In this document: positions 3-26,024 of the stretch, one piece after another | Layout: every line of letters starts with the position of its first letter | Numbering within the stretch: position 1 is the first letter of the stretch | IMG/VR virus record: IMGVR_UViG_3300045922_000215 | Location: 1 to 26,641 of that record | Strand: one strand, 5' to 3' | DNA: 26,641 bases | DNA from: a virus | Translations under genes and position numbers: made by a program | Notes under the pieces: generated by a model | Databases searched by the model: none | Seen by the model: the letters and a program-made list of their open reading frames with translations, nothing else | What the model was told of the DNA's origin: nothing

Positions 3-149
3 TGGGCTATAGATCGTGCCAAAGATGGCGAACCAACTTCCATCGAGAACATGCTAGAACACATGGCAGAAGACCGACCGGAAGTTGCCAAGAAGTTAAA
101 TGATAACAAAAATCTGTGGAAAACGTTGATGAAGTATTACTTGGACTAA
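3..149 (+). CDS. C-terminal fragment of an unrecognised protein, upstream of tnpB A
   Basis: This frame is open from the left window edge to a TAA at 147-149. Its 48 residues look like real coding sequence (acidic, amphipathic, ending KTLMKYYLD), whereas the opposite strand gives poor translations. The gene stops 2 bases before the tnpB ATG, so the two may be translationally coupled. I do not recognise the family. It could be an accessory gene inside the transposable element, matching the short ORF that overlaps tnpB in element B, or a phage gene next to which the element landed. The surrounding phage genes are all on the minus strand and one of them is cut at the element's right end. That favours the view that this plus-strand ORF belongs to the element. 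The N-terminus lies outside the window. Confidence 0.6.
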   Translation, partial: WAIDRAKDGEPTSIENMLEHMAEDRPEVAKKLNDNKNLWKTLMKYYLD

Positions 150-151
150 AT

Positions 152-1396
152 ATGAAGCATCTGTACTCCTACAAGTTTCGGCTGTCTCCAACACCACAGC
201 AAGAAGTGTTGCTCGCCAAGCACTTCGGCTGTGTGCGTTGGATATACAATCATTTTCTTGACAAAAGGATTGAGGAATACAAGACTAACAAGAAGACGCT
301 TCGTAGATCAGACAACGAAAAGGAACTACCTGAAATCAAGACGACTTGTATCTGGCTCAAAGAAGTCGGCAGTCAGTCTTTGCAGTATGCGGTTGAATGC
401 TTGCAGAATGCGTATAACAACTTCTTCCGCAGAGTGAAAGAAAAGAAAAAAGGCAAGAAGGGCTTTCCTCAGTTTAAGCGAAAGCACGACAAACAGTCTT
501 TCCGCATTAAACAGAACATCTACTTAGTTAATGGCAAGCTGGTGTTTCCTAAGTTTCTTGAAGGTATACCAATCATTCAGCACCGTGAGGTTGAAGGCGA
601 TATACAGTTTGCAACAATCAGCAAGAACAAAGCAGGACAGTATCATGTATCCATCACGGTTGAACGAGATATACAGCCGCTACCAGTAAGTAATCGAAGT
701 GTTGGCGTGGACTTGAACGTGACAGCGATGGTAGATAGCAATAGTGTATCACATAAAAATCCACGACCAGCGAAAGAACACCGGCAACGATTGAAGCTAT
801 TGCACCAGAGAGTCACCAGAAGAAAAAAGAACAAAAGTAATGGATTAACGAAAGCAAAGAAAGCGTTAGCAAAGTTGTACCTCAAGGCACATAATAAGCG
901 TGAAGATTTCCTGCACAAATTGAGTCGTCGGATAGTTGATGAAAACCAAATCATCTGTCTGGAAGACCTTGATGTGGCATCCATGCTTGCAAAGACCAAA
1001 CCAGATGACCGAGAAGAACCACGATGGAAGGAGAAGAGAAGACACAGGGACATTCAGGACTGTGGTTTCTATTCTTTTGTCCAGAAATTGAGCTACAAGG
1101 CGGTCTGGCATGGTCGGCAGTTGGTGAAGGTATCACGATGGTTTCCATCGTCGCAACTATGCAGTCATTGTGGTTGGCGATATAAAGATTTGCCGAAGGA
1201 TTGCAAGGAGTGGTGTTGTTGGAATTGTTGGGAAACGAACCAGCGTGATTATAACTCAGCCAAGAACATTTTAGTTGAGGGGATGAGAATACTAACCTCT
1301 GGAACAGAGGGGATAGCCGTTTGTCTTGGCGTAAGACCTGCTCAGAGTGGGCTGCTGATTGGAACGGAAGCCCCGCCGTCTTTAGCGGCGGGGTAG
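152..1396 (+). CDS. tnpB: TnpB RNA-guided endonuclease, element A
   Basis: This is a TnpB (OrfB) protein of IS200/IS605 elements, an RNA-guided DNA nuclease that cuts targets matching a guide taken from the element's right flank. From the ATG at 152 it is 414 aa, a normal length. I prefer this start to the in-frame ATG at 116 because MKHLYSYK matches the start of the second copy. It has the N-terminal OrfB helix-turn-helix region (residues 1-100). The RuvC-like nuclease is split into GVDLN (D187), LEDLD (E271) and the QRDYNSAKN segment (D366). A zinc finger (C337, C340 and the later CCWNC) lies between the last two motifs. All catalytic positions appear intact. The stop codon lies in the right-end hairpin, so the 3' coding region doubles as guide RNA scaffold. 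It is more GC-rich than copy B and shares well over half its residues by eye, so the two are not recent duplicates. Confidence 0.95.
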   Translation: MKHLYSYKFRLSPTPQQEVLLAKHFGCVRWIYNHFLDKRIEEYKTNKKTLRRSDNEKELPEIKTTCIWLKEVGSQSLQYAVECLQNAYNNFFRRVKEKKKGKKGFPQFKRKHDKQSFRIKQNIYLVNGKLVFPKFLEGIPIIQHREVEGDIQFATISKNKAGQYHVSITVERDIQPLPVSNRSVGVDLNVTAMVDSNSVSHKNPRPAKEHRQRLKLLHQRVTRRKKNKSNGLTKAKKALAKLYLKAHNKREDFLHKLSRRIVDENQIICLEDLDVASMLAKTKPDDREEPRWKEKRRHRDIQDCGFYSFVQKLSYKAVWHGRQLVKVSRWFPSSQLCSHCGWRYKDLPKDCKEWCCWNCWETNQRDYNSAKNILVEGMRILTSGTEGIAVCLGVRPAQSGLLIGTEAPPSLAAG

Positions 1397-1401
1397 TTCA
1401 C
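1296..1401 (+). ncRNA. Predicted omegaRNA (reRNA) scaffold 3' part and right end, element A
   Basis: Within and just after the 3' end of tnpB there is a hairpin, CCTCT-GGAAC-AGAGG (1296-1310), then GGATAGCCG, then the right-end hairpin (1371-1393) and TAGTTCAC. In element B the first hairpin has a different stem, CTCTC/GAGAG, with the same GGAAC loop and the same GGATAGCCG. That is compensatory change and supports a conserved RNA fold. In the TnpB family the guide is the sequence directly 3' of the right end, which here would begin at 1402. The 5' end of the RNA is not determined. Confidence 0.6.
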
Positions 1402-1561
1402 ATTTCTCACACTGGACCGTTCGAGAATTCGGCACCGCTGATGGGCCGTATTTGGTGGGCATACAGGCAAAAATCATATTGCCTGCGTCTGCTTCTTTGT
1501 TGATTTCCTCTTGAGAGGCGACCTTTATATCGACGCCACCGATGTTGATTGTTTCGTCCAT
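1402..1561 (-). pseudogene. Small CxxC (zinc-finger-like) protein gene truncated by element A
   Basis: The gene starts at an ATG at 1561 whose first base overlaps the stop codon of the ART-HD gene (TAATG). A good ribosome binding site (GGAGG, 1567-1571) precedes it. About 53 residues remain, ending in a CEKCE motif that looks like half of a zinc knuckle. The frame then enters the right end of element A and stops at 1382 after a few element-encoded residues. The rest of the gene should lie beyond the element's left end. It is the fifth gene of the AAA+/VWA operon. Small zinc-binding proteins are common in phages and no specific function can be assigned. An in-frame ATG 12 bases upstream (1573) has no matching ribosome binding site. 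Confidence 0.7.
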
Positions 1562-2706
1562 TAAATCCTCCAAAGGAATTTCTTCCCGGCCTCAGTAGAG
1601 AGATATTTCGGGTCAGGAGTGATGCCTACTCGTGGCAAGTCCAGACGGTCAGCATCCCAACATACACCAATCGTCGGGTCGTTGCTAGTCTGGCCATCGT
1701 TGTGGTACTTGCAAGCCTCTACCAATTTGTTTAATTGATCCCGATTGATCTTGAGTCGCCCTTCCTCGAATAGTTCTTCTGCCCATTTAGCAGAGCGATG
1801 CCCGTGTTCGGGGTCTTCATCTTCGTTTTGCCGCTTGCTATCGTGGACCAGAGCAAACAGTTGGGCCACGGTCTTGTCGGCCCCCGGTGTGTTGTTCGCC
1901 AAGAACACTGCATTCTTTTCTACCTTCTCCCAATGCCAAAGTCCATGAAAACTTCCCGCCCGAACCAAAGAAAATCGGGACCACGCCTCTTTCAACACCG
2001 ATTCCATCCAACCGGGTCGCTTTGCAACCTTCTGGCAGGGTTCGATTTTGAGACGGCTGGGCAGGGTGACGATTTCGTACTCCCCTCGCCCAAGAAGGAC
2101 GCCGATAATGTCCTTTTTGTTGACAATGGCTTGTACGACGCCGTTCTTTTTGTGATCGAATCGTTGAGCGAACCAACGGGCACGCCAATAACTGAGCGTC
2201 CAGCTATACCCGCTTCGATTGATTCCCTGATGGCCTCGATAAATGATGAATTCTTCCGGCAAGCCCTCAAGGAACTTCCGTTCTTCATCATTCATAAAGT
2301 GTTCTTTATCGCCACGGCTGCTCAATAGAAGCATGGCGACGATATGCTTGTATTGCCAGATATTTTCGCTATCTGACCAGATGCTTCCCAAATTGTCCCA
2401 ATAATCCTTGTCGGACATTAGGTTTTCAATTTCGACAAACTTCTGGAAGCGATAGGGACGTTCGTGGATGTAGAGATAACTACTCCATTTCTGCTCTTCC
2501 ATCGCTTTGGCAGCATATTCTTTCTTGGCTTTTAGTTGAGCGTTATACATGGCATTCATTGCTTCCATGTATGGGACGCCGAATACAAGTGGGTGCTTGA
2601 GAGTAGGCCAACCAAGCGCACCCCGACCCTTCTCAAGCCAAGGCTTGAGTTCCGGGTCAAGGGCTTCTTGACGTTTCAGGACTTCTTCAAAAGATTCGAT
2701 ATTCAT
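1561..2706 (-). CDS. ADP-ribosyltransferase-like + HD-domain fusion protein
   Basis: This 381-aa protein has two apparent enzyme domains. The middle part (about 150-225) reads like an ADP-ribosyltransferase fold, which transfers ADP-ribose from NAD. It shows IIYRG (R157), GYSWTL (S168) and RGEYEIV with an ExE pair (E209, E211), giving the R-S-E pattern. The C-terminal part (about 250-360) is an HD-superfamily phosphohydrolase: H254, the HD pair H288-D289, HGHR (H301/H303), H335 and a CWDADRLDL segment with D351. The N-terminal 100 residues are not recognised. Its start overlaps the end of the upstream gene by 20 bases and its stop overlaps the next ATG, so it is embedded in the operon. Plausible roles are modification of a host or phage protein, with the HD domain removing or processing a nucleotide or ADP-ribose product. 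The combination is inferred from motifs, and the ART call is less certain than the HD call. Confidence 0.8.
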   Translation of the reverse strand: MNIESFEEVLKRQEALDPELKPWLEKGRGALGWPTLKHPLVFGVPYMEAMNAMYNAQLKAKKEYAAKAMEEQKWSSYLYIHERPYRFQKFVEIENLMSDKDYWDNLGSIWSDSENIWQYKHIVAMLLLSSRGDKEHFMNDEERKFLEGLPEEFIIYRGHQGINRSGYSWTLSYWRARWFAQRFDHKKNGVVQAIVNKKDIIGVLLGRGEYEIVTLPSRLKIEPCQKVAKRPGWMESVLKEAWSRFSLVRAGSFHGLWHWEKVEKNAVFLANNTPGADKTVAQLFALVHDSKRQNEDEDPEHGHRSAKWAEELFEEGRLKINRDQLNKLVEACKYHNDGQTSNDPTIGVCWDADRLDLPRVGITPDPKYLSTEAGKKFLWRI

Positions 2707-4036
2707 TGGAATGAAGGATATTCTCGTAGGAATCAGGAGGGCAAATGAGAATGAAATTCTCTTCGGCCTCTGTGACCGCCTCGATTTGTTGGATTGTATT
2801 GAGAACTTTTACTTTCTGCACAATTCCTACCGTACCGGCTGGTACTTCGTCAGCGTTGATAACTTTGATTTTCGTGCCGACCCTCGGTCCAATATTTTGT
2901 GGTTTTCTTGCTGCATGGGCAGTATAAGTGACGCTCGTATTTTTTACGTCACCGAAGAATGCGCCAGCACGAACCATTACGGGTTTGCGGAAAATGATCT
3001 TTCGCTCCCGAAGGCCCGGTCCATAGGGCTGGTTGGCAAAATGCCCCCGCCGCCAGTGGGAACGTGGCGATTTCTTGAGCAAATCCATTTCTACAGCTTC
3101 GCCTTCGGGTACATTCTCCACGACTTCATCATAAAACTCGACCTTTTGATCGAATTTCAAAAGATTGACAGAGGCGGCAAGGTTTGCTTGTGCTTCCATC
3201 GCCCGCCGTGTTGGAATATTGCCACGACGCTTAGCCCGTGCTTCCTGTTGCCATTGTTTATACTTTTGTGGATCGAGTGGCCCATAATCCTTGACGGAAT
3301 ACAGGCTCATCATCATGGCGAAATTCACACCAAGCCTCTGTACGTTTTCAGCAGCATTGCATTCGGCATCAGCCAAATTCACTAACCCCTCGTTGCGATT
3401 GGGCCGGTTGCCGATGATGGCATCTTCAATAGTTTTAAATTCTTCTCGCCGGGGTGTGACGTGAGTAATCACGTTACTTCGGTTGAAGAAGGCACTGACG
3501 TTGATGAATTTCTTTTGATCGTCATGATGTACCAAAACAAATTTTGGTGTATCAGGAATGTTGTATTCCTGTTTGAGAGTGTTCCCGTATTCTGGTGGGA
3601 TTTCCAGAATAATGACGGGATATGGTTGCTTGTAATCATCAAATGAATACGAAGCAGACGAATGCTGCAATGCCTCACATTGCTCTGGAAGCGGGCGAAA
3701 TAGCTTCGGCCCACCAGCCAAAGATTTGCTGAGGGTGTAATACCAAAAAGTCCCGATAGGGTCTATTTGGAGTACATCGAGAATTTTGTTAAATTGCCGC
3801 CAGAATTCAGGGGGATGGCTTTTGAATTCTTTCTCCCCCACGACAATGACGGGTTCATCGGGGTGCTTGGCCTTATATGCATCGGCTTCGCCGTGCTTTG
3901 GGACAAGCATGAATTTAACAGGCCGTACTGAAATGGCCCGGCGTTCCGAGAGTGCTTTGTAAACAATCCACTCTTTTCTGCCGAGCCATGTCAGTACGGG
4001 AATATTCTCTTTGTGATCCAAGAACGTGAAGTCCAT
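2687..4036 (-). CDS. Uncharacterised HWRRGH-motif protein of the AAA+/VWA operon
   Basis: This 449-aa protein has no recognised enzyme domain. I chose the ATG at 4036 because GGGAG lies at good spacing before it, while the in-frame GTG at 4042 is too close to that site. The most distinctive segment is SPRSHWRRGHFANQPYGPG followed by a basic stretch (about residues 333-365). As I recall, similar HWRRGH segments occur in uncharacterised phage and plasmid proteins. The C-terminal ~70 residues, with GTKIKVIN and AGTVGIV, look like a small beta-barrel. The middle is charged and partly helical. It sits 14 bases after the metallopeptidase/VWA gene and overlaps the ART-HD gene. It may be an adaptor or substrate of the AAA+/VWA pair, but this is inference from position only. 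Confidence 0.85.
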   Translation of the reverse strand: MDFTFLDHKENIPVLTWLGRKEWIVYKALSERRAISVRPVKFMLVPKHGEADAYKAKHPDEPVIVVGEKEFKSHPPEFWRQFNKILDVLQIDPIGTFWYYTLSKSLAGGPKLFRPLPEQCEALQHSSASYSFDDYKQPYPVIILEIPPEYGNTLKQEYNIPDTPKFVLVHHDDQKKFINVSAFFNRSNVITHVTPRREEFKTIEDAIIGNRPNRNEGLVNLADAECNAAENVQRLGVNFAMMMSLYSVKDYGPLDPQKYKQWQQEARAKRRGNIPTRRAMEAQANLAASVNLLKFDQKVEFYDEVVENVPEGEAVEMDLLKKSPRSHWRRGHFANQPYGPGLRERKIIFRKPVMVRAGAFFGDVKNTSVTYTAHAARKPQNIGPRVGTKIKVINADEVPAGTVGIVQKVKVLNTIQQIEAVTEAEENFILICPPDSYENILHSNEYRIF

Positions 4037-4050
4037 GACCACTCCCGTAT

Positions 4051-5448
4051 TTATTCGTAATCTTCAAGGCGGAAGAAATTGCAATCTTTGTCGATATAGT
4101 TTTTGGTTCCGCCCTGAGTAATAAACCAATACCATTTCGACGGGTCTTGCGGACGAATCGAATCACCGTATCCGTCAGTAATCACAAATACCGCTTCGGG
4201 ATATTTGCAGTTTTCCTGATTCATGACGGCCTGAACATGCTTCTCCAAGATGGAAAAGCTAGTGCCACCACCACCATAAATTTTCTTGGACGCCAAGGTG
4301 GTTTCCTTGACGACCGTATCGAAGCAGAACAGGCGAACATCGAATCGTTCCGTGGGAAGACTCTCGGCGGCGGTGAAAAACCGATCCTTGAGTCCCCAAC
4401 ATGAACCCGAAGTATCAAGGAAGAAAAACACCTTGATCTTTTTCTTTTCATTTTCATGTTCTTCGACTTCCATATCGGAAGGTAAGAACATATCACGAGG
4501 CAGGAACGTCAACCGGCGCTGGACTCGTGCCCATTGCTCAATATCCTTGTCTTTTTCAACAAGATATTTGCTCGCCCATTTCTTGATGACGGTTTCCCAC
4601 TTCTTTTTCTTTACGACCTTGCCGATTTTGGCAAAGACCCACTGACCACCAGTGCCGGTTCCGGCCTGCTGGTTTTTTGCATCCTTGGGCGGATTCTGAA
4701 AATGCTTGTCCACCATCGACTTGAGGGGTTTCTTTTCATCCTCAGTCAATTCCTTGGACAAATTGTCAATGACTTTGCCCCAAGCGTCGGACTGTTCCTC
4801 GCCCATCATCGAGTGATCGTCAAGCGAACCACCCGGTTGACCGGGGCCAGCTTCCCCGTCACCGGGTCCACCATCGCCGTACATCTTCTCGAATAGGTTG
4901 TAGTAATGCTCGAACATTTCGTCGTCTTTGGGCATGGGTTTCTTGTCCTTAAAGACAGTATCCACCCAGCAAAGACCGCCGTTAGCCTCTTGTTCCGGTC
5001 CCCACGGCTTGCCCTCGTCAATAGCCATTTGTTTGAAAATGGGCTTGATAACATCGTCAATTTTCTTCCGGTCGAAGCCAAAGCCCCGCACCAGATTATG
5101 ATTGACAACAATATCCAAAGCAGAATTGGCTGCACGCCGATTGATACCGGCATCACGAATACGGATGCCGTGATTCAAAATAACGTGCAGTGCTTCGTGG
5201 CAAATTACGAATAACTTGCCATTAAAGTCCAAACGCTGCCAGAATGTCGGATTGAAGTGGAAGTAAACAAATTCCCCCACTTCATCAAACTGTACAGCAG
5301 CGGTGGGCAAATCCTCGTTGAATACGGGCTTGCCCATCTGCCATAGCTTGTAGAAGACTGCGTGGTGCCCTTCAAGGGCCATCGAAATCTCCAACCATTC
5401 ATCGTTGGTGATTCGAGGCAGGGCCATAGTTTTCATGAAGTCGGCCAT
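4051..5448 (-). CDS. Zinc metallopeptidase-like / VWA-domain protein (DUF2201-like)
   Basis: This 465-aa protein combines an N-terminal putative metallopeptidase domain with a C-terminal von Willebrand factor A-like domain. The HExxH motif is HEALH (H84-H88), inside VICHEALHVILNH, with a further conserved-looking NH at 116-117. A Gly/Pro/Asp-rich linker (about 191-210) and a basic region follow. The VWA part has the metal-binding DTSGS (345-349), a GGGGTSF segment (T396) and FVITDGYGD (D425). This arrangement matches DUF2201/VWA-like proteins, which are usually encoded beside MoxR-type AAA+ ATPases, as here. In MoxR/VWA pairs the ATPase remodels a client and the VWA protein is the partner or adaptor. 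Here the intact HExxH suggests proteolysis. GAGGAA precedes the ATG at 5448. The target is unknown. Confidence 0.9.
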   Translation of the reverse strand: MADFMKTMALPRITNDEWLEISMALEGHHAVFYKLWQMGKPVFNEDLPTAAVQFDEVGEFVYFHFNPTFWQRLDFNGKLFVICHEALHVILNHGIRIRDAGINRRAANSALDIVVNHNLVRGFGFDRKKIDDVIKPIFKQMAIDEGKPWGPEQEANGGLCWVDTVFKDKKPMPKDDEMFEHYYNLFEKMYGDGGPGDGEAGPGQPGGSLDDHSMMGEEQSDAWGKVIDNLSKELTEDEKKPLKSMVDKHFQNPPKDAKNQQAGTGTGGQWVFAKIGKVVKKKKWETVIKKWASKYLVEKDKDIEQWARVQRRLTFLPRDMFLPSDMEVEEHENEKKKIKVFFFLDTSGSCWGLKDRFFTAAESLPTERFDVRLFCFDTVVKETTLASKKIYGGGGTSFSILEKHVQAVMNQENCKYPEAVFVITDGYGDSIRPQDPSKWYWFITQGGTKNYIDKDCNFFRLEDYE

Positions 5449-5455
5449 TGTTTCC

Positions 5456-7048
5456 TCACTTGGGTTGCACGAGTTTGTGGCTCAAGCCAGCCTCATTCAG
5501 CTTAGTCATAAGGGCCACAAATCGCCCACCGTGCCGACTCAGAATCATCGACCAGTTGTGGCCGGTGTTCCGATGGATTTCCTTGATGCAGTGGTTGACC
5601 ACGCCCGGCAGCTTGGCAAACGGCGGGCTTGTCAACGATGCGGGCCACATCTTGCCCACCGATGCACTAAGCACTTCCAGAGCATTCAATGCTTGGTCTG
5701 CCGTCATGTCTTTCGGAAGGCTCTTCTCGATCTTCTCATACGCCGACTGTTGCAGTTGCGGAGTATTGGCATCCAATCGGCGTAGTTGCGTCAGGATGCC
5801 GGTGAATGCCGCTGCGGACTCGCCAGTGTAGTGTGCTTCTGCTACTTCACTGTCGCCGCCGCTGCTTTTGGTGGCGAAGGCACGAGCCAACTCTTGGTTC
5901 TGTTGAAGAACTTTGCGAATTTCTCGTCCCGTTTTCTGGTCGGTGCCAGCCTTGAGAATTTCGTCACAAACATTCATGAATACCGGAATTTTGTCCGAAT
6001 TCGTGATGATATGCTTGCGAATTTTGGCATTATCCGCCATCGAGGAAGCAATCTTTTCCTTCGAGATAAGCGGCAGGAAGAAATTCATCAGAGTATCCGA
6101 CTCTGGAATGAACTTCATCGCTGCGGCGAAGTTATTCTCGTTGGAAAGGAATGTCCGTGCCCCGGCAACGTCGTTGGCTTCCATCAATTCCGAAAGCCGG
6201 TCGGAAGTCGGCCCGGTATTGAGGGCGTTCGCCAACTTGCTGACGCCAGCCTCATGCGGAATAACATCCCGAATATCTCCGTGTAATTGGAACATATTCA
6301 GGGCGTATTCGAGACGCCGGGGCGAGACGACATTCTGCATTTCGGGGGTCAATTCCTTCCACCAACCGATGGCGGAATCGGCCAAGCGACGACCAAATTT
6401 CTGCCGGAACCACTCGGTATTCGGCAAATAAGGGATGGTCGTAATAACGTGGTAGCGGTCCTGCTGAGCAGGGTCCAACTTTTCCACGTCGTAGGTTTCA
6501 TCTTCGTCGTCGTCGGGGTTGATCGCCGCCCAAACGATCTTGAGATTCGGGAATTTCTCGCCGTTGATGGATTTGAATTGCAGCAATTCCATCACGGCAT
6601 TGCGAACCTTCTTCGGGCTACGGTTGAATTCGTCAAAGAATAACGCTTCGACTTCGCCAGTGGCAAAGGTGCGAGGACGAACCAACTCAAGATAGTTGAA
6701 TTGACGACGGTTTTCGACGCTCTGCACTACCTTTTGAGCAGATTCGCCTTTCAGGTGCCAATTCTTTTCGATCCATTCCAAAGCAAGGGATTGGTCGATG
6801 TTGATAAGTTCACGAATAACTTCAAACTGGTCGGAGCCGAATTTGCCTTCGGACTTTTCCTTGGGGACACCAACGAAGTCAACCCAAGGGTCCATTGTGG
6901 ACGCCGAGAAATACCGCCAGTTTAAGTTGTGTTCATCGAAGGCTTGCTTGACCATAGCGGTCTTGCCGACGCCGTGCTTGCCGATAAACAACACGTTGAG
7001 GTTGTTCTTGATCCAAAAACCCAGCTTATTCTGAATGTTGACGGCCAT
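5456..7048 (-). CDS. MoxR-like AAA+ ATPase
   Basis: This 530-aa ATPase is the first gene of the operon. Walker A is GKHGVGKT (23-30) and Walker B is EALFFDEFNR (about 134-143). Sensor 1 is in WAAINP (N177) and a candidate arginine finger follows in LDPAQQDRYH (R198). The DEFNR...VRNAVMELLQ arrangement is typical of the MoxR/RavA branch, whose members act as ring-shaped chaperones with VWA partners. The ATPase core fills the first ~280 residues. The C-terminal ~250 residues are longer than in simple MoxR proteins and probably form a helical lid and partner-binding region. It lies 7 bases before the metallopeptidase/VWA gene. CGGAG precedes the ATG, and a promoter with an inverted repeat lies 40-70 bases upstream. 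A phage origin rather than a captured host operon is likely but not proven. Confidence 0.92.
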   Translation of the reverse strand: MAVNIQNKLGFWIKNNLNVLFIGKHGVGKTAMVKQAFDEHNLNWRYFSASTMDPWVDFVGVPKEKSEGKFGSDQFEVIRELINIDQSLALEWIEKNWHLKGESAQKVVQSVENRRQFNYLELVRPRTFATGEVEALFFDEFNRSPKKVRNAVMELLQFKSINGEKFPNLKIVWAAINPDDDEDETYDVEKLDPAQQDRYHVITTIPYLPNTEWFRQKFGRRLADSAIGWWKELTPEMQNVVSPRRLEYALNMFQLHGDIRDVIPHEAGVSKLANALNTGPTSDRLSELMEANDVAGARTFLSNENNFAAAMKFIPESDTLMNFFLPLISKEKIASSMADNAKIRKHIITNSDKIPVFMNVCDEILKAGTDQKTGREIRKVLQQNQELARAFATKSSGGDSEVAEAHYTGESAAAFTGILTQLRRLDANTPQLQQSAYEKIEKSLPKDMTADQALNALEVLSASVGKMWPASLTSPPFAKLPGVVNHCIKEIHRNTGHNWSMILSRHGGRFVALMTKLNEAGLSHKLVQPK

Positions 7049-7089
7049 CAGTCCGCTCCGAATTGCGATGAGGGAGTTAGTCTGCTGCG

Positions 7090-7118
7090 ATTATACCACA
7101 GTTTTGTTATGTGGTAAA
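7090..7118 (-). promoter_or_regulatory. Sigma70-like promoter of the AAA+/VWA operon
   Basis: On the minus strand TTTACC (7118-7113) is followed after 17 bases by a perfect TATAAT (7095-7090). The bases just before the -10 box (TGG) make it an extended -10 (TGnTATAAT). It lies about 40 bases before the AAA+ start codon. The ParB-like gene has a near-identical promoter. Confidence 0.75.
7094..7116. promoter_or_regulatory. Inverted repeat (candidate operator) over the promoter
   Basis: TACCACA and TGTGGTA form a perfect 7-bp inverted repeat separated by 9 bases. The arms overlap the -35 and -10 boxes. A dimeric repressor bound here would block RNA polymerase. Only the -10-proximal arm is kept at the ParB-like promoter, so the repeat may instead be partly coincidental with promoter sequence. 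Confidence 0.4.
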
Positions 7119-7174
7119 GCAGTTTTGCTTGCTACGCTACATATACGGAAAAGTTCTTCGCACTCCCAGATAAA

Positions 7175-7208
7175 AAAATAGCCCGGTGAATATTCACCGG
7201 GCTATTTT
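7175..7208. terminator. Bidirectional intrinsic terminator (34-bp perfect palindrome)
   Basis: Two 17-base arms meet without a loop at 7191/7192. Each arm is AAAATAGCCCGGTGAAT or its complement, with A/T runs on both outer sides. It lies just after the stop of the ParB-like gene and would end its transcript before the AAA+ promoter. Being symmetric, it could act on either strand. Confidence 0.85.
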
Positions 7209-7224
7209 CGCCGGATATTCGGGA

Positions 7225-8460
7225 CTACGACTTCTTCGGCATTTCCCAGCCGGGCAACCACTGGAAAATATCCTCGTCCCGTTCATAGAGTTTGTCGATC
7301 TTTTTGTCCGTCATGAGGGCGTTGATGGCCCCCAAGGTTTTACGGTACGACAATCCCTGTGCGTTAATGCGTTGGGCACGCATTCGCTGCAAACTCACGA
7401 ACAGGGCACGGGCCGGATCGCCGTCATCGCTGAACTTGATTTCACGGAGCCGTTCACAGAACGGTTCGATCTTCTCGGCACCGTACCACATATACGCCTT
7501 GGCGACAGCGGCTTGCACTTCCGCCCGGCCTTGTGGCAGATGAGTGTGAATCCAGTCGATGACGTGTTCCCACTTGTGGGCGAATGCCGCCACTTCGGAT
7601 TCGGTGTATCGAACCTGCTTGCTGCTCAATCCCTTCATCAGCGCCCGACAGAAACCGGCAATGCGATTGCTTGCCAATTTCGAGTCCACAATCAGCTTCA
7701 AACGGTCGCTGAGTGGACGGACACGCCCGGAGTCGATGACGAATCGTGCCGTAGTCAGCACGTTAAAGGTGAAGTAAAGCGGGATTTCGATCTGCCCGCC
7801 TTCTTCCCAGATTTCTTTGATTGCCGTCAGCCGGTGACGACCGTTGTAGACCTTGTTCTGGTAGTCCACACCGATTGCTTCGTCGGTGGGAATCCACGAA
7901 CCATTGAGCATGTCCCGTTTGTACTTCTCAACAGTTGAACGGTCAAGACGACGATTGCCTTCGTCTTCCAGCCAAATGTTGTCGAGACAGGTCTTTGCCA
8001 TTGGCCCCGTCAGCATAATGTACTCGCTATACTGATTCTGGTTGCGGGGGAAAGCGAACCACGGCTTGTCTTTGCCGTTGCAGGCAAACAGGTAGTATTC
8101 CTGATTCGTCTTGGCCTGCTTGCAGATTTCCTTGTGACGACGCTGCTCTTCCGATACAATCTCGTCGGTGATCTTGCCAACAGGACTGGTCGGAGCGGGC
8201 TTGTGCTGTGGCTGTTGCTGATTTGCAACACCCGGCAATGGCTTATCAGGAGAGACAGGCTGAACCTGCGGTTTCTCTTCGTGCAAGAAGCGATGCTTCT
8301 GCAAGACCATATCCGCAACACTGGTGCGGCCAACGCCGCCAAAGAGGGGTTGATTCACTGGACCTAGACCTCCTGCGAGTTGTGACTTGCGCATCTGTTC
8401 GGCTTGCTGTTCCTTCGCACGCTTCTCGTTCTGACGCCGGATACGTCGCTTAGAACCCAT
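7225..8460 (-). CDS. ParB-like (ParB/sulfiredoxin fold) phage protein
   Basis: This 411-aa protein has a long basic and Gln/Pro-rich N-terminal region (1-100) that is probably disordered. A ParB-like domain then spans about 165-260. The diagnostic part is NRRLDRSTVEKYKRDMLNG, a segment introducing IGVDYQNKVYNGRHRL (NGRHRL at 206-211), and a following beta-rich segment. ParB-like folds bind or hydrolyse nucleotides. In phages such stand-alone proteins are common and mostly uncharacterised, so this one should not be read as a chromosome partition protein. The C-terminal ~150 residues are helical. It stands alone between two terminators under its own promoter. Its promoter resembles that of the AAA+ operon, suggesting shared timing. 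Confidence 0.8.
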   Translation of the reverse strand: MGSKRRIRRQNEKRAKEQQAEQMRKSQLAGGLGPVNQPLFGGVGRTSVADMVLQKHRFLHEEKPQVQPVSPDKPLPGVANQQQPQHKPAPTSPVGKITDEIVSEEQRRHKEICKQAKTNQEYYLFACNGKDKPWFAFPRNQNQYSEYIMLTGPMAKTCLDNIWLEDEGNRRLDRSTVEKYKRDMLNGSWIPTDEAIGVDYQNKVYNGRHRLTAIKEIWEEGGQIEIPLYFTFNVLTTARFVIDSGRVRPLSDRLKLIVDSKLASNRIAGFCRALMKGLSSKQVRYTESEVAAFAHKWEHVIDWIHTHLPQGRAEVQAAVAKAYMWYGAEKIEPFCERLREIKFSDDGDPARALFVSLQRMRAQRINAQGLSYRKTLGAINALMTDKKIDKLYERDEDIFQWLPGWEMPKKS

Positions 8461-9055: not shown

Positions 9056-9799
9056 TTAATCGAATATTTGTAATTGATTCTTTTCTGATATAAAAACATT
9101 CTCTCCAAACGCCAATTCAAACCATACGTTGTAAATTCCACATTCGAGTTCATTCGTGTCTAGGAAATAGTAAGCATACATTTTTTCCCGATAGTCCACG
9201 AGGGCACGATCTACTAACAGGCGTAAATCTTGTTCTGCCGGGACACACTCCCCGCAGGCAATTTCAATAGATACCCGTAAATCTGAGACTATGGCGAGAT
9301 TTTCGTAGTAGGGTAGTATATCGGACCCTCGTGGGACATTCGGGGTTATTTGTATGATTATGTATCTCTTTGTTCCCTTGCGTATTTTGTTTGGTCTGAA
9401 GGCAAAGCTGAAGTCATATATCGGTGGTACAGGAGAAGTAAACCATAAGTCGGGATAAATTACAAAGTTATTTGTGATACAAGCTGTTTGACATTCGCCG
9501 TCCTCAAATGTCACATACCAAGCATCGACATATCTCCCGATTGTATAAAGCGGATCGGCAATCGGGACTTCAATTAAATATTGTCCGGTGGCTTCTTGAA
9601 CAACGTCATCGGCAGAAATTGTTTGCACCAGTCTGCGACCATCTGGATTGGTGGAACTAACTTCATTGGGATCAAGGAAATAAATTTCTATCTTTTCGAT
9701 AGACTGCACATTTCTACGGTTATTGGAATTGTATGTCAATAACCGTAGACGCACGGTGTCACCGCAGACCGGATTTTGCATTCTTTCTTTGGTTGCCAC
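9056..9799 (-). CDS. Putative virion structural (baseplate/tail) protein
   Basis: This 247-aa protein starts at a GTG at 9799 preceded by AAGGAG. I do not recognise a named family. It looks beta-rich with at least two immunoglobulin-like halves. The first (about 10-115) contains GQYLIEVPIADPLYTIGRY and WYVTFEDGECQ. The second (about 125-245) ends in IYNVWFELAFGENVFI. It lies between the gp26-like baseplate assembly gene and the small tube-like gene, separated from both by fewer than 10 bases. This placement suggests a baseplate or tail component. There is no signal peptide or membrane segment. Confidence 0.75.
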   Translation of the reverse strand: MATKERMQNPVCGDTVRLRLLTYNSNNRRNVQSIEKIEIYFLDPNEVSSTNPDGRRLVQTISADDVVQEATGQYLIEVPIADPLYTIGRYVDAWYVTFEDGECQTACITNNFVIYPDLWFTSPVPPIYDFSFAFRPNKIRKGTKRYIIIQITPNVPRGSDILPYYENLAIVSDLRVSIEIACGECVPAEQDLRLLVDRALVDYREKMYAYYFLDTNELECGIYNVWFELAFGENVFISEKNQLQIFD

Positions 9800-9804
9800 T
9801 TATC

Positions 9805-10038
9805 TTATCTCCTTCTTGAAGCTGCTTGGGCCTTTCTTCTCTGGGCTTCCATTGCTTCGTTTTCTTGTTCTTTCTGCTGGACAAACCTATCAATTAACCA
9901 CTTTCTGGTATTGATAGGCATAGACATGCTGCTATGCAGCCCTTGACGCAAGTGATACATGAAGAAGAATTGCTCTTCTAGCAAGTTTTTCCCCAAAGTT
10001 AGGCTTGGATGTTCTCGGCCTTCTTCTTCCGGGGGAAG
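9805..10038 (-). CDS. Frameshift-accessed C-terminal extension of the gp26-like protein
   Basis: This frame lies -1 relative to the gp26-like gene and is open from upstream of that gene's end to a stop at 9805. It has no convincing start of its own: the first possible start is a TTG at 9996 without a ribosome binding site. The translation looks genuine (for example MYHLRQGLHSSMSMPINTRK, then a Glu/Gln/Arg-rich helix). A slippery T TTT TTC at 10044-10038 would deliver ribosomes into it, adding 77 residues to the first 364 residues of the gp26-like protein. Tail assembly chaperones of many phages, such as lambda G/GT and P2 E/E', use this strategy. An independent start at the internal ATG (MYHLRQ) is the alternative. 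Confidence 0.65.
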   Translation of the reverse strand, partial: LPPEEEGREHPSLTLGKNLLEEQFFFMYHLRQGLHSSMSMPINTRKWLIDRFVQQKEQENEAMEAQRRKAQAASRRR

Positions 10039-11129
10039 AAAAAATTTGCTTCAAGAGGCAAGTCCATTTCAAATTCTTGGAGGCAACTTGGGCAGAAAAT
10101 TTCCACGTTTGTATCCACGCCGAATGGTGGCTCATTGATACAGTTGCGGATATGAGCAACGTCATTGATCGGCAAATTCTTCAAGAGAATTTGAAGCTCA
10201 GACTTGTCAGTAATTCCGTCAATATCTTCGAGCAACATCGACGTTCTGTGAGTCAAGGTGTCGTCTGCCGCTTGATCGCCGTAGGTCTTGAGTCTTCGAT
10301 CACGATATTCTGTGATTTCTTGTTCATCACGACCTGTGGAAAGACGGTAATGGAAAACCAAACCAGTTGTTGGCAATGTGTCTTCGAGCATTGGGCCGAA
10401 TTCGTCTGGGCAATGCTCAACATAAAGGCTTGCCAAATCAATATCAGCCGAGAATTTCTTCTCGCACTCTGGGCACTTTACTTCTACATCGTAGTGATTT
10501 GAGTAAGAAATACCACGAAGATAAATCAAAAGATAAGTTCTGTCAGCAGTCAAAAGATTTTCTGGTTGGAAGTTTTCCATCATACAACGCTTGAAAATCA
10601 TGTTGATGGCTTGGCCCTTCCGAACGAATCTCGGTGTGGCAAGAATTTGCTCTTCTTCGCCGGTCATTTGACGGATACTGAGGATGCCGTTGCTTGGACC
10701 ATTTACGCCGTCGTAGAACTTGCCCTTAGATGGAAGTTGAACTTCTTCGTAGTTATAAGTCGAAGACTTCAACTGTTGCAAAAGGTCTTTCAAGTGACCA
10801 GAGTGAGTATCGTGACGAACAATTTCTGGACCTTGCTTAGCTTCGTTTGTAAATCTCTTGCTTCCCTTACCGGCTGGTCTTTCCTTTAGAGAAGAAAATG
10901 GCTTTGGTGCTGCCGCCCCTACTTGCTCGCTTAAAGGAACATTGGGGTCGGATTGCTGGGCCATCTTGAGTGCCTGCAAAAACTCCTTGGGTACATTTCC
11001 TTTGACCTCTACGCTGCCTGCGTCTGGCTTAGATTCTTGTTCATCATCACTCAATGCTTTGCGAACGGCTTCGGCCTTCTTTAATTCGTCATCATCTACT
11101 TTTCTTGGACGGAATACATCGTCTGCCAT
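9999..11129 (-). CDS. gp26-like baseplate hub assembly chaperone
   Basis: This 376-aa protein resembles T4 gp26-type baseplate assembly proteins. The family pattern begins at VQLPSKGKFYDG (130-141). It continues with SIRQMTGEEEQILATP (151-166), DRTYLLIYLRGISY, and two CxxC pairs (C219/C222 and C346/C349) that probably bind zinc. It ends in DLPLEANFFFP. The first ~110 residues are charged and low-complexity, longer than in T4. AAGGAG precedes the ATG. In T4 this protein helps assemble the baseplate hub and is not a major virion part. The end of the gene carries a slippery site, so it probably makes a minor -1 product (see 9805-10038). Confidence 0.85.
   Translation of the reverse strand: MADDVFRPRKVDDDELKKAEAVRKALSDDEQESKPDAGSVEVKGNVPKEFLQALKMAQQSDPNVPLSEQVGAAAPKPFSSLKERPAGKGSKRFTNEAKQGPEIVRHDTHSGHLKDLLQQLKSSTYNYEEVQLPSKGKFYDGVNGPSNGILSIRQMTGEEEQILATPRFVRKGQAINMIFKRCMMENFQPENLLTADRTYLLIYLRGISYSNHYDVEVKCPECEKKFSADIDLASLYVEHCPDEFGPMLEDTLPTTGLVFHYRLSTGRDEQEITEYRDRRLKTYGDQAADDTLTHRTSMLLEDIDGITDKSELQILLKNLPINDVAHIRNCINEPPFGVDTNVEIFCPSCLQEFEMDLPLEANFFFPRKKKAENIQA
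10038..10047 (-). other. Slippery sequence for -1 frameshifting
   Basis: On the minus strand the codons GCA AAT TTT TTC hold two overlapping X XXY YYZ heptamers: A AAT TTT (10047-10041) and T TTT TTC (10044-10038). The zero frame ends 12 codons later, and the -1 frame stays open for 77 codons. I could not identify a clear downstream stimulatory hairpin by eye. Confidence 0.6.
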
Positions 11130-12042: not shown

Positions 12043-12344
12043 TGTCCCTAAAACGCTATCAATTATATTGTGAAATCTGCGGCTATAAGAGATTAACTGA
12101 TGGAACCGATATTCAAGATTTGGTTCCGGTCAAAACGTCTAAAATACAACACGAATTGCCCTTTATCGACCCGATGACGAAGAAGACCGTTACGCCTCCT
12201 TATAAAGCACAACGCCTTCGTTTCAAATGCCCAAAATGCGGCAGGGTCATTATGTCTAAACAAATAGAATTTGTCGAGGAAGTAAATGAAACTGGTAACA
12301 CTGCTGGACGTGAAACAGGCTCTTCGGGACTCCCGATTTCGTGA
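12042..12344 (+). CDS. Small zinc-ribbon protein
   Basis: This 100-aa protein has two CxxC pairs, C10/C13 (YCEICGY) and C63/C66 (FKCPKCGR), separated by a basic beta-type linker. This is the layout of a zinc ribbon. Such proteins often contact nucleic acid or RNA polymerase, but nothing here says which. It is coupled to the upstream membrane protein gene by a TAATG overlap. Its last 20 codons are overlapped in another frame by the following gene, so its polar, glycine-rich C-terminus may be shaped by that overlap. Confidence 0.8.
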   Translation: MSLKRYQLYCEICGYKRLTDGTDIQDLVPVKTSKIQHELPFIDPMTKKTVTPPYKAQRLRFKCPKCGRVIMSKQIEFVEEVNETGNTAGRETGSSGLPIS

Positions 12345-12663
12345 AAGTCTACCGAAGTCTCTTAATGAAGATGTTCAAAAATATCTGAACAATCCGGGTT
12401 GTGCCTGCAATACGCCACTCTATCGTAAGATACTCAAGGAATGTACAGAACAACTAAAGTCGTATTTCCCCAATCGCTCTTTATCAAACATAGACGAAGA
12501 AATCAAAAAGTTGGCAGAGAACAACTGGACTGTCATCAACTGTCATATTAACGAGCTTGAAGACAAAATGCGTAAGCTGCCAAAAGGTCGCAAACAAATC
12601 GCTATGACCCGCTATGAAGATCAAGTCACGGTAATCATTAACGAACTTGAGATTTTATTCTAA
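12286..12663 (+). CDS. Unrecognised 125-aa protein overlapping the zinc-ribbon gene
   Basis: It starts 59 bases inside the preceding gene, with GAGGA just before the ATG, which supports this start. The protein is mostly helical and charged, with LLDVKQALRDSRFRESLP at the N-terminus, a CAC pair around residue 40 and a long helix LRKLPKGRKQ-like basic patch near the C-terminus. I do not recognise the family. Its end overlaps the convergent glycosyltransferase gene by 26 bases, and no terminator is visible between them. Confidence 0.75.
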   Translation: MKLVTLLDVKQALRDSRFRESLPKSLNEDVQKYLNNPGCACNTPLYRKILKECTEQLKSYFPNRSLSNIDEEIKKLAENNWTVINCHINELEDKMRKLPKGRKQIAMTRYEDQVTVIINELEILF

Positions 12664-13579
12664 TTGCTTTGGAGATTACCTCGTCACAAGATGCAATCAT
12701 TTTGTCGGGGTAATCTTTGTATTTTGATATATCAAATGGCCACTCATCAGAATTAAGTCGCCTAGACCCAAGAATCTTGGCATTTTCATAGAAGCACTTT
12801 GCTTTTCCGTACTCATCAGCTTCGTAGTAAATGTCCCCCAAAAGGCACCAAAATTCGGCCATCAATGGCTTCTCTGCAAAACAATACATCAGCAACTCAA
12901 GTGCCTTGCGTTGATCTTTTAGAACGTAGCAATAAACTGTGGCCATATAATAGCGAGTCATTATCGAAGCCATTGTCATTTTCTTTTCTTGAAATAAGAA
13001 ATGGTTGGCAAGGTCGATGAATTCTTTCCACTTGCTTTGTGTAAGAAAAATGCAGGCTTTGTAATAGTGGTATTCAAAAGCCATTGGGTTGTTGCTTTTC
13101 CAAGCCTCTAACAATTCGAGATTTCTCTCTGTCAGGTCTGGTGGTGTGGATCGAATATAGATGCCAGTCGGCCCAGCAGTTCCCGGTATAATTTCGTAAA
13201 CCGGGTTTTTATATTTGATTTTTCTGCTTTTATGCCACAACCTGATCGGCTTGGTTATCAATGTGTTTTGAATGATATTACAACGATAATTACCTTCATC
13301 TAAACCTTCTATCTCTTCCAAACCAGTCAAAACTTCTTCCCAAGGTTCAAGCTGAAGGTTCCATTCTGTTTCTTTTTGACACAACTCATTGCGAATAGCA
13401 CTAAGATCATTACGGAAATTCATCCGAATGACTTCGCCATATTTCTTGCAAATATCTGCCGTCTTGTCTGTGCATCCTATGTCCGCAAATAAAAACTTTG
13501 CGTTCAATGAAGACACTGAATCAATCGCTTTTTGAATCGTTTTTTGATTGTTCTGTATTACCATGTGAATCGTTATCAT
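12638..13579 (-). CDS. Family-2 glycosyltransferase-like protein with TPR-like C-terminus
   Basis: This 313-aa protein has an N-terminal GT-A-like domain: a short start strand (MITIHMVIQNNQ) and FADIGCTDKTADICKKYG, the equivalent of the DxGSxDxT motif of family-2 glycosyltransferases. AIRNELCQ then leads into WNLQLEPWEEVL where most relatives have a DxD metal-binding motif. That motif is replaced here by LEPWE, so metal use or activity may differ. The C-terminal half (about 165-275) is helical with TPR-like repeats (FWCLLGDIYYEADEYGKAKC). GAGGA precedes the ATG. It may glycosylate a phage or host surface component or DNA; the acceptor cannot be told. Confidence 0.8.
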   Translation of the reverse strand: MITIHMVIQNNQKTIQKAIDSVSSLNAKFLFADIGCTDKTADICKKYGEVIRMNFRNDLSAIRNELCQKETEWNLQLEPWEEVLTGLEEIEGLDEGNYRCNIIQNTLITKPIRLWHKSRKIKYKNPVYEIIPGTAGPTGIYIRSTPPDLTERNLELLEAWKSNNPMAFEYHYYKACIFLTQSKWKEFIDLANHFLFQEKKMTMASIMTRYYMATVYCYVLKDQRKALELLMYCFAEKPLMAEFWCLLGDIYYEADEYGKAKCFYENAKILGSRRLNSDEWPFDISKYKDYPDKMIASCDEVISKAIRIKSQVR

Positions 13580-24639: not shown

Positions 24640-24792
24640 ATGAAAAAAAACAGTAACAACAAGTATTTGACCATACGCATCCCCGACTCACTCATGGAAA
24701 AGTTTCAGCAGACTTGTGTTGATAATTATAAGACCATGAGTGAAGCCTTGCGTGATCTAATACAAGAATATATCAAGAGGAATGATAAGTGA
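24640..24792 (+). CDS. Ribbon-helix-helix (CopG/Arc-like) protein upstream of tnpB
   Basis: This 50-aa protein is a typical short RHH regulator: a beta strand KYLTIRIPD (8-16), helix A SLMEKFQQTC (17-26) and helix B MSEALRDLIQEYI (33-45). RHH proteins bind operator DNA as dimers through paired strands. Its stop codon overlaps the tnpB GTG (GTGA), so the two are translationally coupled. A plausible job is repression of its own operon, limiting TnpB and right-end RNA. A TATAAT at 24626-24631 lies 9-14 bases upstream, but no matching -35 box is present, so the start of transcription is not settled. Confidence 0.8.
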   Translation: MKKNSNNKYLTIRIPDSLMEKFQQTCVDNYKTMSEALRDLIQEYIKRNDK

Positions 24793-26024
24793 AGCACCTG
24801 TATTCCTACAAATACAGATTGAATCCAACACCACAACAACAAGTGCTATTGAATAAGCACTTCGGTTGTGTTCGCTACCTCTACAATCATTTCCTCACTC
24901 AAAGAACCGCTGTTCACAAAGAACACCAAGAAACACAAAATTACTACAACAACGCCACAGAAATACCAAAACTCAAGAAAGACTTGCCTTGGCTCAAGGA
25001 AGTGGGAAGCCAATGCCTGCAATACGCAGTCAAACAACTGCAAAATGGATATGATAATTTCTTCCGTAAATGCAAACAGAAAGTCAAGGGTAAAAAAGGT
25101 TTTCCTCGATATAAGTCCAAACACGGAAAACAATCCTTCAAGGTAATGCAAAATGTAAGACTGATTGAAGGCAATCTGATAATACCTAAGTTCTTAGAAG
25201 GTATCTCAATTATTCAACACCGAGAACTAGAAGGTGAAATCAAATTTGCTACAGTCAGTAAGAATAAGGCAGGACAATACTATGTGAGCATTACTGTTGA
25301 GAAGGAAATTTCCTGTTTGCCTAAGTCTAACAAAACTGTTGGTTATGATTTGAACGTGAAGCAAATGGTTGGTAGTGATGGAAACAAGCACAATAATCCA
25401 CTTCCTGAGCATGAACATAAGCAATATCTCAAGTTTTTAGCAAAGGAAGTTTCAAGAAAGAAGAAAGGCAGTAAAGAACGAAAGAAAGCACAATTGCGAT
25501 ACAATAAATGGAAGTTGTATTGTAAGAATTTGCGTGAAGATTTCTTGCATAAAGTCAGTTCTAAGATTATCAACGAGAACCAAGTGATAGTTTTAGAAGA
25601 CCTTGGTGTTAAAGAAATGTTTGCGAACAAGAAGGACAAACGCAAAGAACCACGCTGGAAAGAGAAGAAACTTCACAAGCAATTGCAAGATTGTTGTTTC
25701 TATTCGTTTGTCCAAAAGTTGATGTATAAGGCAGAGTGGTATGGTCGAGAGATCATCAAAGTAAGTCGCTGGTTTCCAAGTTCACAGCTATGTTCTGAGT
25801 GTAATTACCAGAACAGAGAATTAGGCGAAGAGAAGGAATGGACTTGCTGGAATTGCTGGACTAATCATAATCGTGATGAAAATGCTAGTGTCAATATACA
25901 CAATGAAGGTATGAGAACAAGAACTCTCGGAACGAGAGGGATAGCCGACTGCCCTGATATAAGACCCATCAAAGATGGGCTATTGGTTGGGTCGGAAGCC
26001 CCGCCGTCTTTAGCGGCGGGGTAG
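24789..26024 (+). CDS. tnpB: TnpB RNA-guided endonuclease, element B
   Basis: This 411-aa TnpB starts at a GTG that overlaps the RHH stop. Motifs are GYDLN (D187), VLEDL (E270), a zinc finger (C335, C338, C353, C356) and RDENASVNI (D363), all intact. The N-terminal HTH and arginine/lysine-rich central region match element A, and MKHLYSYK is shared exactly. The catalytic D187 falls at the same residue in both copies. The stop codon lies in the right-end hairpin. It is a likely active nuclease guided by RNA from its own 3' region. By eye more than half of the residues match element A, so the copies diverged some time ago or arrived separately. Confidence 0.95.
   Translation: MKHLYSYKYRLNPTPQQQVLLNKHFGCVRYLYNHFLTQRTAVHKEHQETQNYYNNATEIPKLKKDLPWLKEVGSQCLQYAVKQLQNGYDNFFRKCKQKVKGKKGFPRYKSKHGKQSFKVMQNVRLIEGNLIIPKFLEGISIIQHRELEGEIKFATVSKNKAGQYYVSITVEKEISCLPKSNKTVGYDLNVKQMVGSDGNKHNNPLPEHEHKQYLKFLAKEVSRKKKGSKERKKAQLRYNKWKLYCKNLREDFLHKVSSKIINENQVIVLEDLGVKEMFANKKDKRKEPRWKEKKLHKQLQDCCFYSFVQKLMYKAEWYGREIIKVSRWFPSSQLCSECNYQNRELGEEKEWTCWNCWTNHNRDENASVNIHNEGMRTRTLGTRGIADCPDIRPIKDGLLVGSEAPPSLAAG

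Follow-up and report, generated by a model that had tools for sequence, protein, structure and literature searches.

Organization of the five-gene operon

The window analyzed here is a stretch of 26,641 bases that constitutes an IMG/VR virus record (IMGVR_UViG_3300045922_000215), and our subject is an operon of five genes near its left end. All five lie on the minus strand, in the order MoxR, VWA, HWRRGH, ART-HD, and CxxC. The first gene encodes a MoxR-type AAA+ ATPase of 530 residues (5456..7048). The second encodes a 465-residue protein having an HExxH metallopeptidase-like domain and a VWA domain with a metal ion-dependent adhesion site (MIDAS; 4051..5448), which we refer to as the VWA protein. 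The product of the third gene, a divergent member of the AcrVA2 superfamily as judged by its motif and by profile comparisons, has 451 residues and is named after its HWRRGH motif (2687..4042). The fourth gene encodes a fusion of an ADP-ribosyltransferase (ART) domain and an HD domain (ART-HD, 1561..2706), and the last one is a CxxC gene cut by the end of an insertion sequence (IS; 1382..1573). The spacing between consecutive genes is +7, +8, −20, and −13 bases; if CxxC is read from the ATG at 1561 instead, it overlaps the ART-HD stop codon by one base. The initial annotation had described five closely packed genes separated by overlaps or gaps of at most 14 bases. All of them are present as one operon and the packing is indeed tight, but the limit does not hold, as the biggest overlap is 20 bases. 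The MoxR, HExxH/VWA, HWRRGH, ART, and HD motifs that it had pointed out are conserved in aligned relatives.

MoxR and VWA form the core pair

The MoxR protein matches phrog_1297, labelled 'ATPase', with an E-value of 9.4e-19, and its matches to AAA-type Pfam families are all below the cut-offs. Among eight aligned sequences, the Walker A motif GxxGxGKT and the Walker B motif DE are invariant. So are the HExxH residues of the VWA protein (His84, Glu85, and His88) and its MIDAS residues (Asp345-x-Ser-x-Ser plus Asp425), likewise in eight sequences. The VWA protein matches the Pfam metallopeptidase family DUF2201_N above the cut-off (E = 2.8e-6), VWA-type Pfam families below theirs, and phrog_1314 at 1.1e-33. 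The label of phrog_1314 is 'HNH endonuclease', yet it matches a metallopeptidase-VWA protein; the label is perhaps a misannotation.

A profile search of viral contigs gave 140 confirmed relatives of the VWA protein, the best 80 of which were used (the other 60 were never seen); several of the loci, which we denote by L numbers, are near-identical contigs or one contig fetched twice. MoxR is present in all 80 loci. This count was made with the profiles A4 and A3 alone, and the iterated MoxR profile also matched the VWA protein of L137; a single open reading frame (ORF), in L018 outside the 80 loci, is matched by both A4 and A3. A tblastn search with the MoxR of the window alone recovered 79 of the 80. 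MoxR lies immediately 5' of VWA in 75 loci (74 under a stricter gap limit). In L066, L067, and L073 we considered that VWA might be missing or fused to MoxR, and rejected this because the two ORFs merely overlap through start-codon choice.

The pair also has a conserved neighborhood. In the window, a T4-type baseplate protein (9999..11129, minus strand; PF12322, 2.4e-17) and a conserved protein of 247 residues, whose gene is hereafter g9056 (9056..9799, minus strand), are encoded near MoxR, and in relatives g9056 is located between baseplate and MoxR. Both genes are found in 64 of the 80 VWA loci, and a ParB-like gene in 16. Where g9056 and MoxR are both plus-strand ORFs (61 loci), they are at most 300 bases apart in 48.

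A pair of this kind is in print. For group 2.2 jumbo phages, Iyer et al. 2021 (PMC7824862) reported MoxR together with a vWA protein that carries a metallopeptidase domain at its N-terminus, and suggested that the two take part in virion assembly. By the description of those proteins, the pair in the window resembles theirs in having adjoining MoxR AAA+ and vWA genes (with a 7-base gap), a vWA domain fused to an N-terminal metallopeptidase domain (DUF2201_N, HExxH), and relatives in very large phages; unlike theirs, it shares an operon with HWRRGH and ART-HD. The relatives reside on contigs of up to 595 kb, the window itself being a 26.6-kb record. Hence, MoxR and the metallopeptidase-VWA protein are a core pair of large phages already published as a proposed virion-assembly pair, and the baseplate neighborhood in 64 of 80 loci supports that proposal.

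MoxR-VWA pairs had been annotated initially as chaperone or conflict modules. According to the text available of Kaur et al. 2020 (PMC7159879), MoxR-vWA conflict systems need a third component, which is VMAP, iSTAND, FtsH, or a beta-propeller-vWA protein. No such component was found in a Pfam scan of the operon proteins, for which the coverage of all four kinds by the library is unchecked, nor by PADLOC in four operon proteins and the ParB-like protein, with the coverage of its models likewise unchecked. The chaperone alternative has a published proposal behind it. The reading of the operon as a MoxR-vWA ternary conflict system is not supported by these scans.

HWRRGH and ART-HD are an accessory pair

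HWRRGH occurs in 10 and ART-HD in 9 of the 80 VWA loci. The two genes usually lie between MoxR-VWA and a second ParB-like gene, shorter than and related to the first, which closes this slot in several relatives. The slot can also be without them. The 595-kb phage LR756511 has the order baseplate, g9056, ParB, MoxR, VWA, ParB with both HWRRGH and ART-HD absent, and ART-HD has no match anywhere in that phage. VWA is followed by ParB without the cargo pair also in L092 (with one 93-residue ORF in between), L097, L098, and L100.

Besides the window, which is excluded from the following counts, ART-HD was found on 13 viral contigs and on one contig (L137) of a metagenome-assembled genome (MAG). HWRRGH is near ART-HD on 13 of these 14 contigs, L137 being the exception. 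HWRRGH proper is on 16 viral contigs, 13 of which carry ART-HD; this number leaves out L149–L157 (9 of 25 loci), which match mainly by the C-terminal motif. HWRRGH without any ART-HD match on the contig was seen in L078, L146, and L148. The arrangement varies as well: small ORFs separate the two genes in L049 and L014–L016, the order is ART-HD then HWRRGH in L051, and the Bauldia MAG locus L138 has the ART half only. Neither VWA nor MoxR was matched on the pair-bearing contigs L050 (54 kb) and L051 (37 kb), nor MoxR on L146 (99 kb), all of which may be fragments. HWRRGH and ART-HD are thus an accessory pair separable from MoxR-VWA.

This distribution bears on the proposal, made initially, that the five genes jointly modify and then process a target. 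A tally of the co-occurrence of the parts had been named as the check that could speak against it, and the parts do occur independently: MoxR is in 80 of 80 VWA loci, HWRRGH in 10, and ART-HD in 9. A dedicated five-gene 'modify then process' system would fit the tight operon and the nine loci in which MoxR, VWA, HWRRGH, and ART-HD are found together, but its parts occur without one another, the order is swapped in L051, and the CxxC profile matches 3 of 87 loci, all from the near-identical group of the window. As the parts occur independently, the genes do not make up one five-part machine, and we reject the single system as very improbable on the distribution of the parts across loci.

The same counts apply to a different idea that would unite the operon. 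T4 Alt is an enzyme packaged in the virion and injected. ART-HD could be such an enzyme, loaded or clipped by MoxR and the VWA-peptidase protein, and the operon would then be one virion-loading unit. The close packing of the genes, the position of a peptidase beside an ART, and the baseplate neighborhood are in keeping with this, as is the use of ARTs by jumbo phages on host proteins described in the available text of PMC7824862. ART-HD is near only 9 of 80 MoxR-VWA pairs, however, and L050 and L051, possibly fragments, have ART-HD with no VWA or MoxR match. We regard virion loading as unlikely.

Two contigs deserve separate mention. L137 (RXKI01000027.1), binned in a Neisseriaceae MAG, carries g9056, ParB, MoxR, VWA, and ART-HD of the jumbo-phage type; either a contig from a phage ended up in the bin of a bacterium, or the binning hints at the host. 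The 146-kb contig of L018 and L143 was included among those having the set; stop codons or frameshifts disrupt its cassette genes, reflecting sequencing error or decay.

Placement of HWRRGH in the AcrVA2 superfamily

The motif SPRSHWRRGH spans residues 325–334 and is kept in eight relatives, with deviations in individual members. As whole proteins, HWRRGH and ART-HD are not named by Pfam or NCBIfam. With HWRRGH as the query, tblastn against phage records returned nothing or one motif-only match at E = 1, and seven phage records had no match in a search without a positive control. The structure model of HWRRGH is poor, with a predicted local distance difference test score (pLDDT) of 44.9.

We then compared profiles. 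The profile A6, built from eight jumbo-phage HWRRGH sequences, has no match in the PDB; it reaches remote phage and plasmid proteins sharing the C-terminal motif S-P-x-x-H-x-R-R-[GA]-H. After these remote proteins were added (A10), the sole significant match in the PDB was AcrVA2, at 4.2e-4 over the motif. The profile A11, which also includes HWRRGH, matches AcrVA2 at 3.2e-17 over residues 42–318. To lessen circularity, A12 was built from six plasmid and phage proteins with no HWRRGH member, though one of the six (L156) had been found through A6. A12 matches AcrVA2 (7ci1) at 3.2e-26. When all 7,060 ORFs from 90 loci were searched, A12 gave 15 domain rows in 14 ORFs at E ≤ 1, all of which are labelled HWRRGH; the best match is at 3.3e-8 over profile positions 93–310 in L049 and L056, which are one contig. 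In the direct comparison of A6 with A12, the profile–profile probability is 97.2 with an E-value of 4.6e-11 over 41 columns. As a control, 600 shuffled proteins were searched with A6, and one of them matched, at E = 9.

HWRRGH is therefore, by these profile matches, a divergent member of the AcrVA2 superfamily, most clearly so in its C-terminal motif, and homology over the full length is likely. It shares with AcrVA2 (PDB 7CI1/7CI2) the C-terminal H-x-R-R-[GA]-H region, and its best relative, in L049, is similar over the profile positions given above. It differs from AcrVA2 in being very divergent and longer, and in having a C-terminal extension in the clade of the window. To our knowledge, HWRRGH has no link with Cas12a. 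AcrVA2 itself is reported to recognize the nascent N-terminus of Cas12a and to trigger mRNA decay by unknown machinery (PMC13131331, as excerpted).

The AcrVA2-like family also includes a large Erwinia phage protein (L158, ANJ65042.1), to which its depositor gave the name 'putative protein FinQ'. FinQ has been described as an inhibitor from plasmids, acting by termination of transcription in the F tra operon (PMC8744291, as excerpted). The plasmid fertility inhibitor FinQ and AcrVA2 may share ancestry, a hint that comes from the annotation label.

ART-HD combines an ART signature with an HD phosphohydrolase half

The ART part of ART-HD comprises approximately residues 1–225 and the HD part approximately residues 240–381. 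The former matches phrog_4776 at 1.4e-64 over residues 5–219. We aligned 13 ART sequences, which come from jumbo-phage-like contigs, actinophages, one rhizobial phage, and one Bauldia MAG. Fourteen columns are invariant, namely Arg86, Trp103, Trp110, Glu114, Arg157, Gly158, Gly166, Ser168, Trp169, Ala176, Phe179, Glu209, Glu211, and Pro216. Among them, Arg157, Ser168, and Glu209/Glu211 make up the R-S-ExE signature. By eye, T4 ModA and ModB have the same order of RG, S, and EQE. ART-HD resembles these mono-ADP-ribosyltransferases (mARTs) in the R...S...ExE succession followed by a hydrophobic stretch and a proline, and differs from them in belonging to a separate family (phrog_4776), having its own N-terminal half, and being fused to HD. 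The ART part is matched in 106 phage records (102 Mycobacterium, 2 Gordonia, 1 Ruegeria, and 1 Mesorhizobium), whereas with the whole protein as the query no phage record reached a match over 80% of the length. No HD match came from four of the ART-bearing records, each searched whole. A match of the ART part to 9pha_A (YonE) at E = 0.47 was taken as chance.

In the HD half, His258, His288-Asp289, and Asp351/Asp353 are invariant in eight aligned sequences. Profile comparison matched it to 3djb (4.5e-5) and 2pq7 (1.2e-4), and four of seven ART-HD proteins weakly match Pfam HD, with a best E-value of 0.035. The HD half is also matched in six Vibrio and Roseobacter phage records. The structure model of ART-HD has a pLDDT of 80.4. 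Its best structural match is 2pq7, with a Z-score of 17.2 and a root mean square deviation of 3.1 over 148 residues, followed by YpgQ with a Z-score of 12.9; phosphodiesterase (PDE) domains of the SidE family come close behind, with Z-scores of 11.0–12.7, the best of them about level with YpgQ. The best viral structure match is an uncharacterized relative. No known ART is among the fold matches listed, which were filled by the HD half and so have no bearing on the ART fold. Taken by signature and by HD motif, ART-HD carries an intact ART signature and a canonical HD phosphohydrolase half. The latter is like YpgQ and 2pq7 in the H...HD...DADRLD motif and in fold, and unlike them in being fused to an ART domain.

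The SidE effectors also contain an mART and an HD-fold PDE in one chain, the ART of our protein being assigned by its signature. The SidE PDE spans approximately residues 200–600, with the mART after it. In ART-HD the domain order is reversed, the ART being first; a deubiquitinase domain would not fit, and the HD half is matched best by an ordinary HD hydrolase (the Z-score of 17.2 given above). The catalytic triad of the SidE PDE is His277-Glu340-His407 (PMC10143409, as excerpted). Hence, the resemblance between ART-HD and SidE is one of layout, and homology is claimed for the HD fold alone. The fusion is unmentioned in the portions available of the main texts of a survey of viral NAD and ADP-ribose enzymes (PMC9503650) and of the jumbo-phage overview (PMC7824862). 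The set had initially been called unfamiliar as a described system; no description of the ART-HD fusion was found in the literature searched, and the MoxR-VWA(peptidase) pair is in print.

The neighbors of single domains raise the idea that ART-HD acts on RNA, which it would either ADP-ribosylate or repair at the ends, while the HD half would take off phosphates. An ART lacking HD adjoins tRNA genes in Krypton555, and in Cp1R7A-A1 one neighbors a tRNA splicing ligase. In Vibrio phage D69, the fourth gene past an RNA ligase encodes an HD lacking ART. These neighborhoods are few and come without a chance comparison, however, and the ART is also near a DNA polymerase processivity factor in Catdawg and near a terminase in Octobien14. 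Moreover, R-S-ExE is the usual signature of protein-directed ARTs, though RNA targets of such enzymes exist. We consider an RNA target quite improbable.

The CxxC gene is interrupted by IS605-type elements

The left edge of the operon, at position 1402, coincides with the end of an IS605-type element whose tnpB gene (116..1396, plus strand) precedes it and whose right end cuts the CxxC gene. The two tnpB copies of the window share sequence up to 1402. The CxxC ORF of the window has 63 residues, of which the final ELPRR and the stop codon (approximately 1382–1399) are derived from the IS. In L054, a contig near-identical to the window, this gene continues with CEKCKQ...CLEC up to its own IS junction, which was placed by eye. 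Since L054 reads through to further cysteines, the native protein has at least two CxxC pairs, and by inspection it appears zinc-ribbon-like. The CxxC motif was thus not created by the IS junction, a possibility ruled out by L054, in which both cysteines are native. The ORF and the cysteines annotated initially are real; the gene is not intact. It is interrupted at two different points in near-identical phages. In other lineages, the ORFs that replace CxxC gave no convincing alignment.

By eye, the same IS605-type end is at the two points of the CxxC gene, at 1382–1402 in the window and at 12150–12165 in L054, which suggests that the element is active or that the gene is a hot spot for insertion. 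The two related tnpB genes are located one at each end of the window (116–1396 and 24789–26024), and in L002 there is an apparent tnpA past the first tnpB, seen by eye only.

Transcription signals and flanking genes

Upstream of MoxR, some 40 bases before it, is a promoter-like site on the minus strand (7090..7118), TTTACC-17-TATAAT with a TG before the −10 element, i.e. an extended −10, recognized from its match to the consensus alone. Such sites are about as frequent in the region as in shuffled sequences (8 versus a mean of 6.6), and the frequencies of the TATAAATA and TATAATA patterns do not exceed chance expectation. Farther upstream, a perfect 17-bp palindrome followed by a T run (7168..7208, minus strand) is likely the terminator of the upstream ParB-like gene, although the terminator scan did not list it among its sites. 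With this palindrome after the ParB-like gene and the promoter-like site before MoxR, the five genes are plausibly a single transcription unit.

The ParB-like gene itself (7225..8460, minus strand) flanks the MoxR-VWA/cargo slot and matches phrog_5931 at 9.6e-25 and a ParB PHROG at just 0.015. Two other genes of the window were annotated. The product of 14599–15183 matches sigma-factor PHROGs (phrog_351 at 2.2e-8 and phrog_234 at 2.1e-5) and is possibly a phage sigma factor. A glycosyltransferase-like gene (12638–13579; phrog_13126, 2.7e-7) is present in 61 of 87 loci around MoxR-VWA.

Proposed function of the operon

The gene order, synteny, distribution, homology, and intact motifs described above are observations; activities, substrates, and purpose are what we infer. 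With modest confidence, we favor an assembly-chaperone pair accompanied by accessory cargo for counter-defense or host takeover. The VWA protein would grip a client of the tail or baseplate, MoxR would remodel this client at the expense of ATP, and clipping of the client may fall to the HExxH domain. HWRRGH would bind a host polypeptide, perhaps during its translation, and silence the mRNA or the product. The ART half would move ADP-ribose from NAD+ onto a host target, as T4 enzymes do, and the HD half would cut the pyrophosphate of the ADP-ribose tag or of a released or related nucleotide. The logic of the pyrophosphate-cutting reaction is that of the SidE enzymes (PMC10143409), although the domains come in the opposite order and the HD half resembles an ordinary hydrolase of the metal-dependent kind. 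Host takeover or counter-defense had been suggested for all five genes. It no longer applies to the set, and is kept for HWRRGH and ART-HD because of the AcrVA2-superfamily membership of the former and the intact ART and HD signatures of the latter.

Several observations weigh against this reading. MoxR is not directly before VWA in 5 of the 80 loci (L080, L081, L109, L130, and L131), and the baseplate/g9056 pair is absent from 16 of 80 within the stretch examined. Because the phages include many relatives and near-identical copies, the 13 of 14 contigs on which HWRRGH accompanies ART-HD are not 13 independent events. With regard to AcrVA2, a search of the PDB with A6 gave no AcrVA2 match at E ≤ 10. 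The HWRRGH of L052, near-identical to that of the window, is met by A12 at E = 0.0044 in its C-terminal part only. After the C-terminal motif was cut off, just 2 of 12 remote proteins matched A6 clearly (L146 at 5.4e-54 and L156 at 0.0021, with a third at 1.1). For ART-HD, the structure matches cover residues 173–381, and the ART half is assigned by its sequence signature.

A bolder version would make HWRRGH and ART-HD a silencing machine guided by nascent chains, in which the AcrVA2-like protein finds a chosen host protein during synthesis and has ART-HD as a dedicated effector. ART-HD would ADP-ribosylate the mRNA, the ribosome, or the nascent chain, and HD would then release AMP from the tag, so that the phosphoribosyl stub left behind would resist ordinary ADP-ribose erasers. 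We hold this version to be quite improbable. If true, it would supply the missing degradation step of AcrVA2 as described in PMC13131331, and would be a phage counterpart of the two-step chemistry of SidE with the domain order reversed.

HWRRGH, so far an orphan defined by a motif, is now placed in the AcrVA2 anti-CRISPR superfamily. This superfamily is seen in very large phages adjoining an ART-phosphohydrolase fusion. Among the titles and abstract openings covered by our literature search, no paper described an AcrVA2-superfamily gene beside ART-HD in very large phages; this association appears new to us, the MoxR-VWA pair being known. The baseplate synteny gives genomic support to a virion-assembly role of phage MoxR-vWA pairs, and ART-HD, which on 13 of 14 contigs has an AcrVA2-like gene for a neighbor, is a concrete candidate partner for mRNA decay of the AcrVA2 type.

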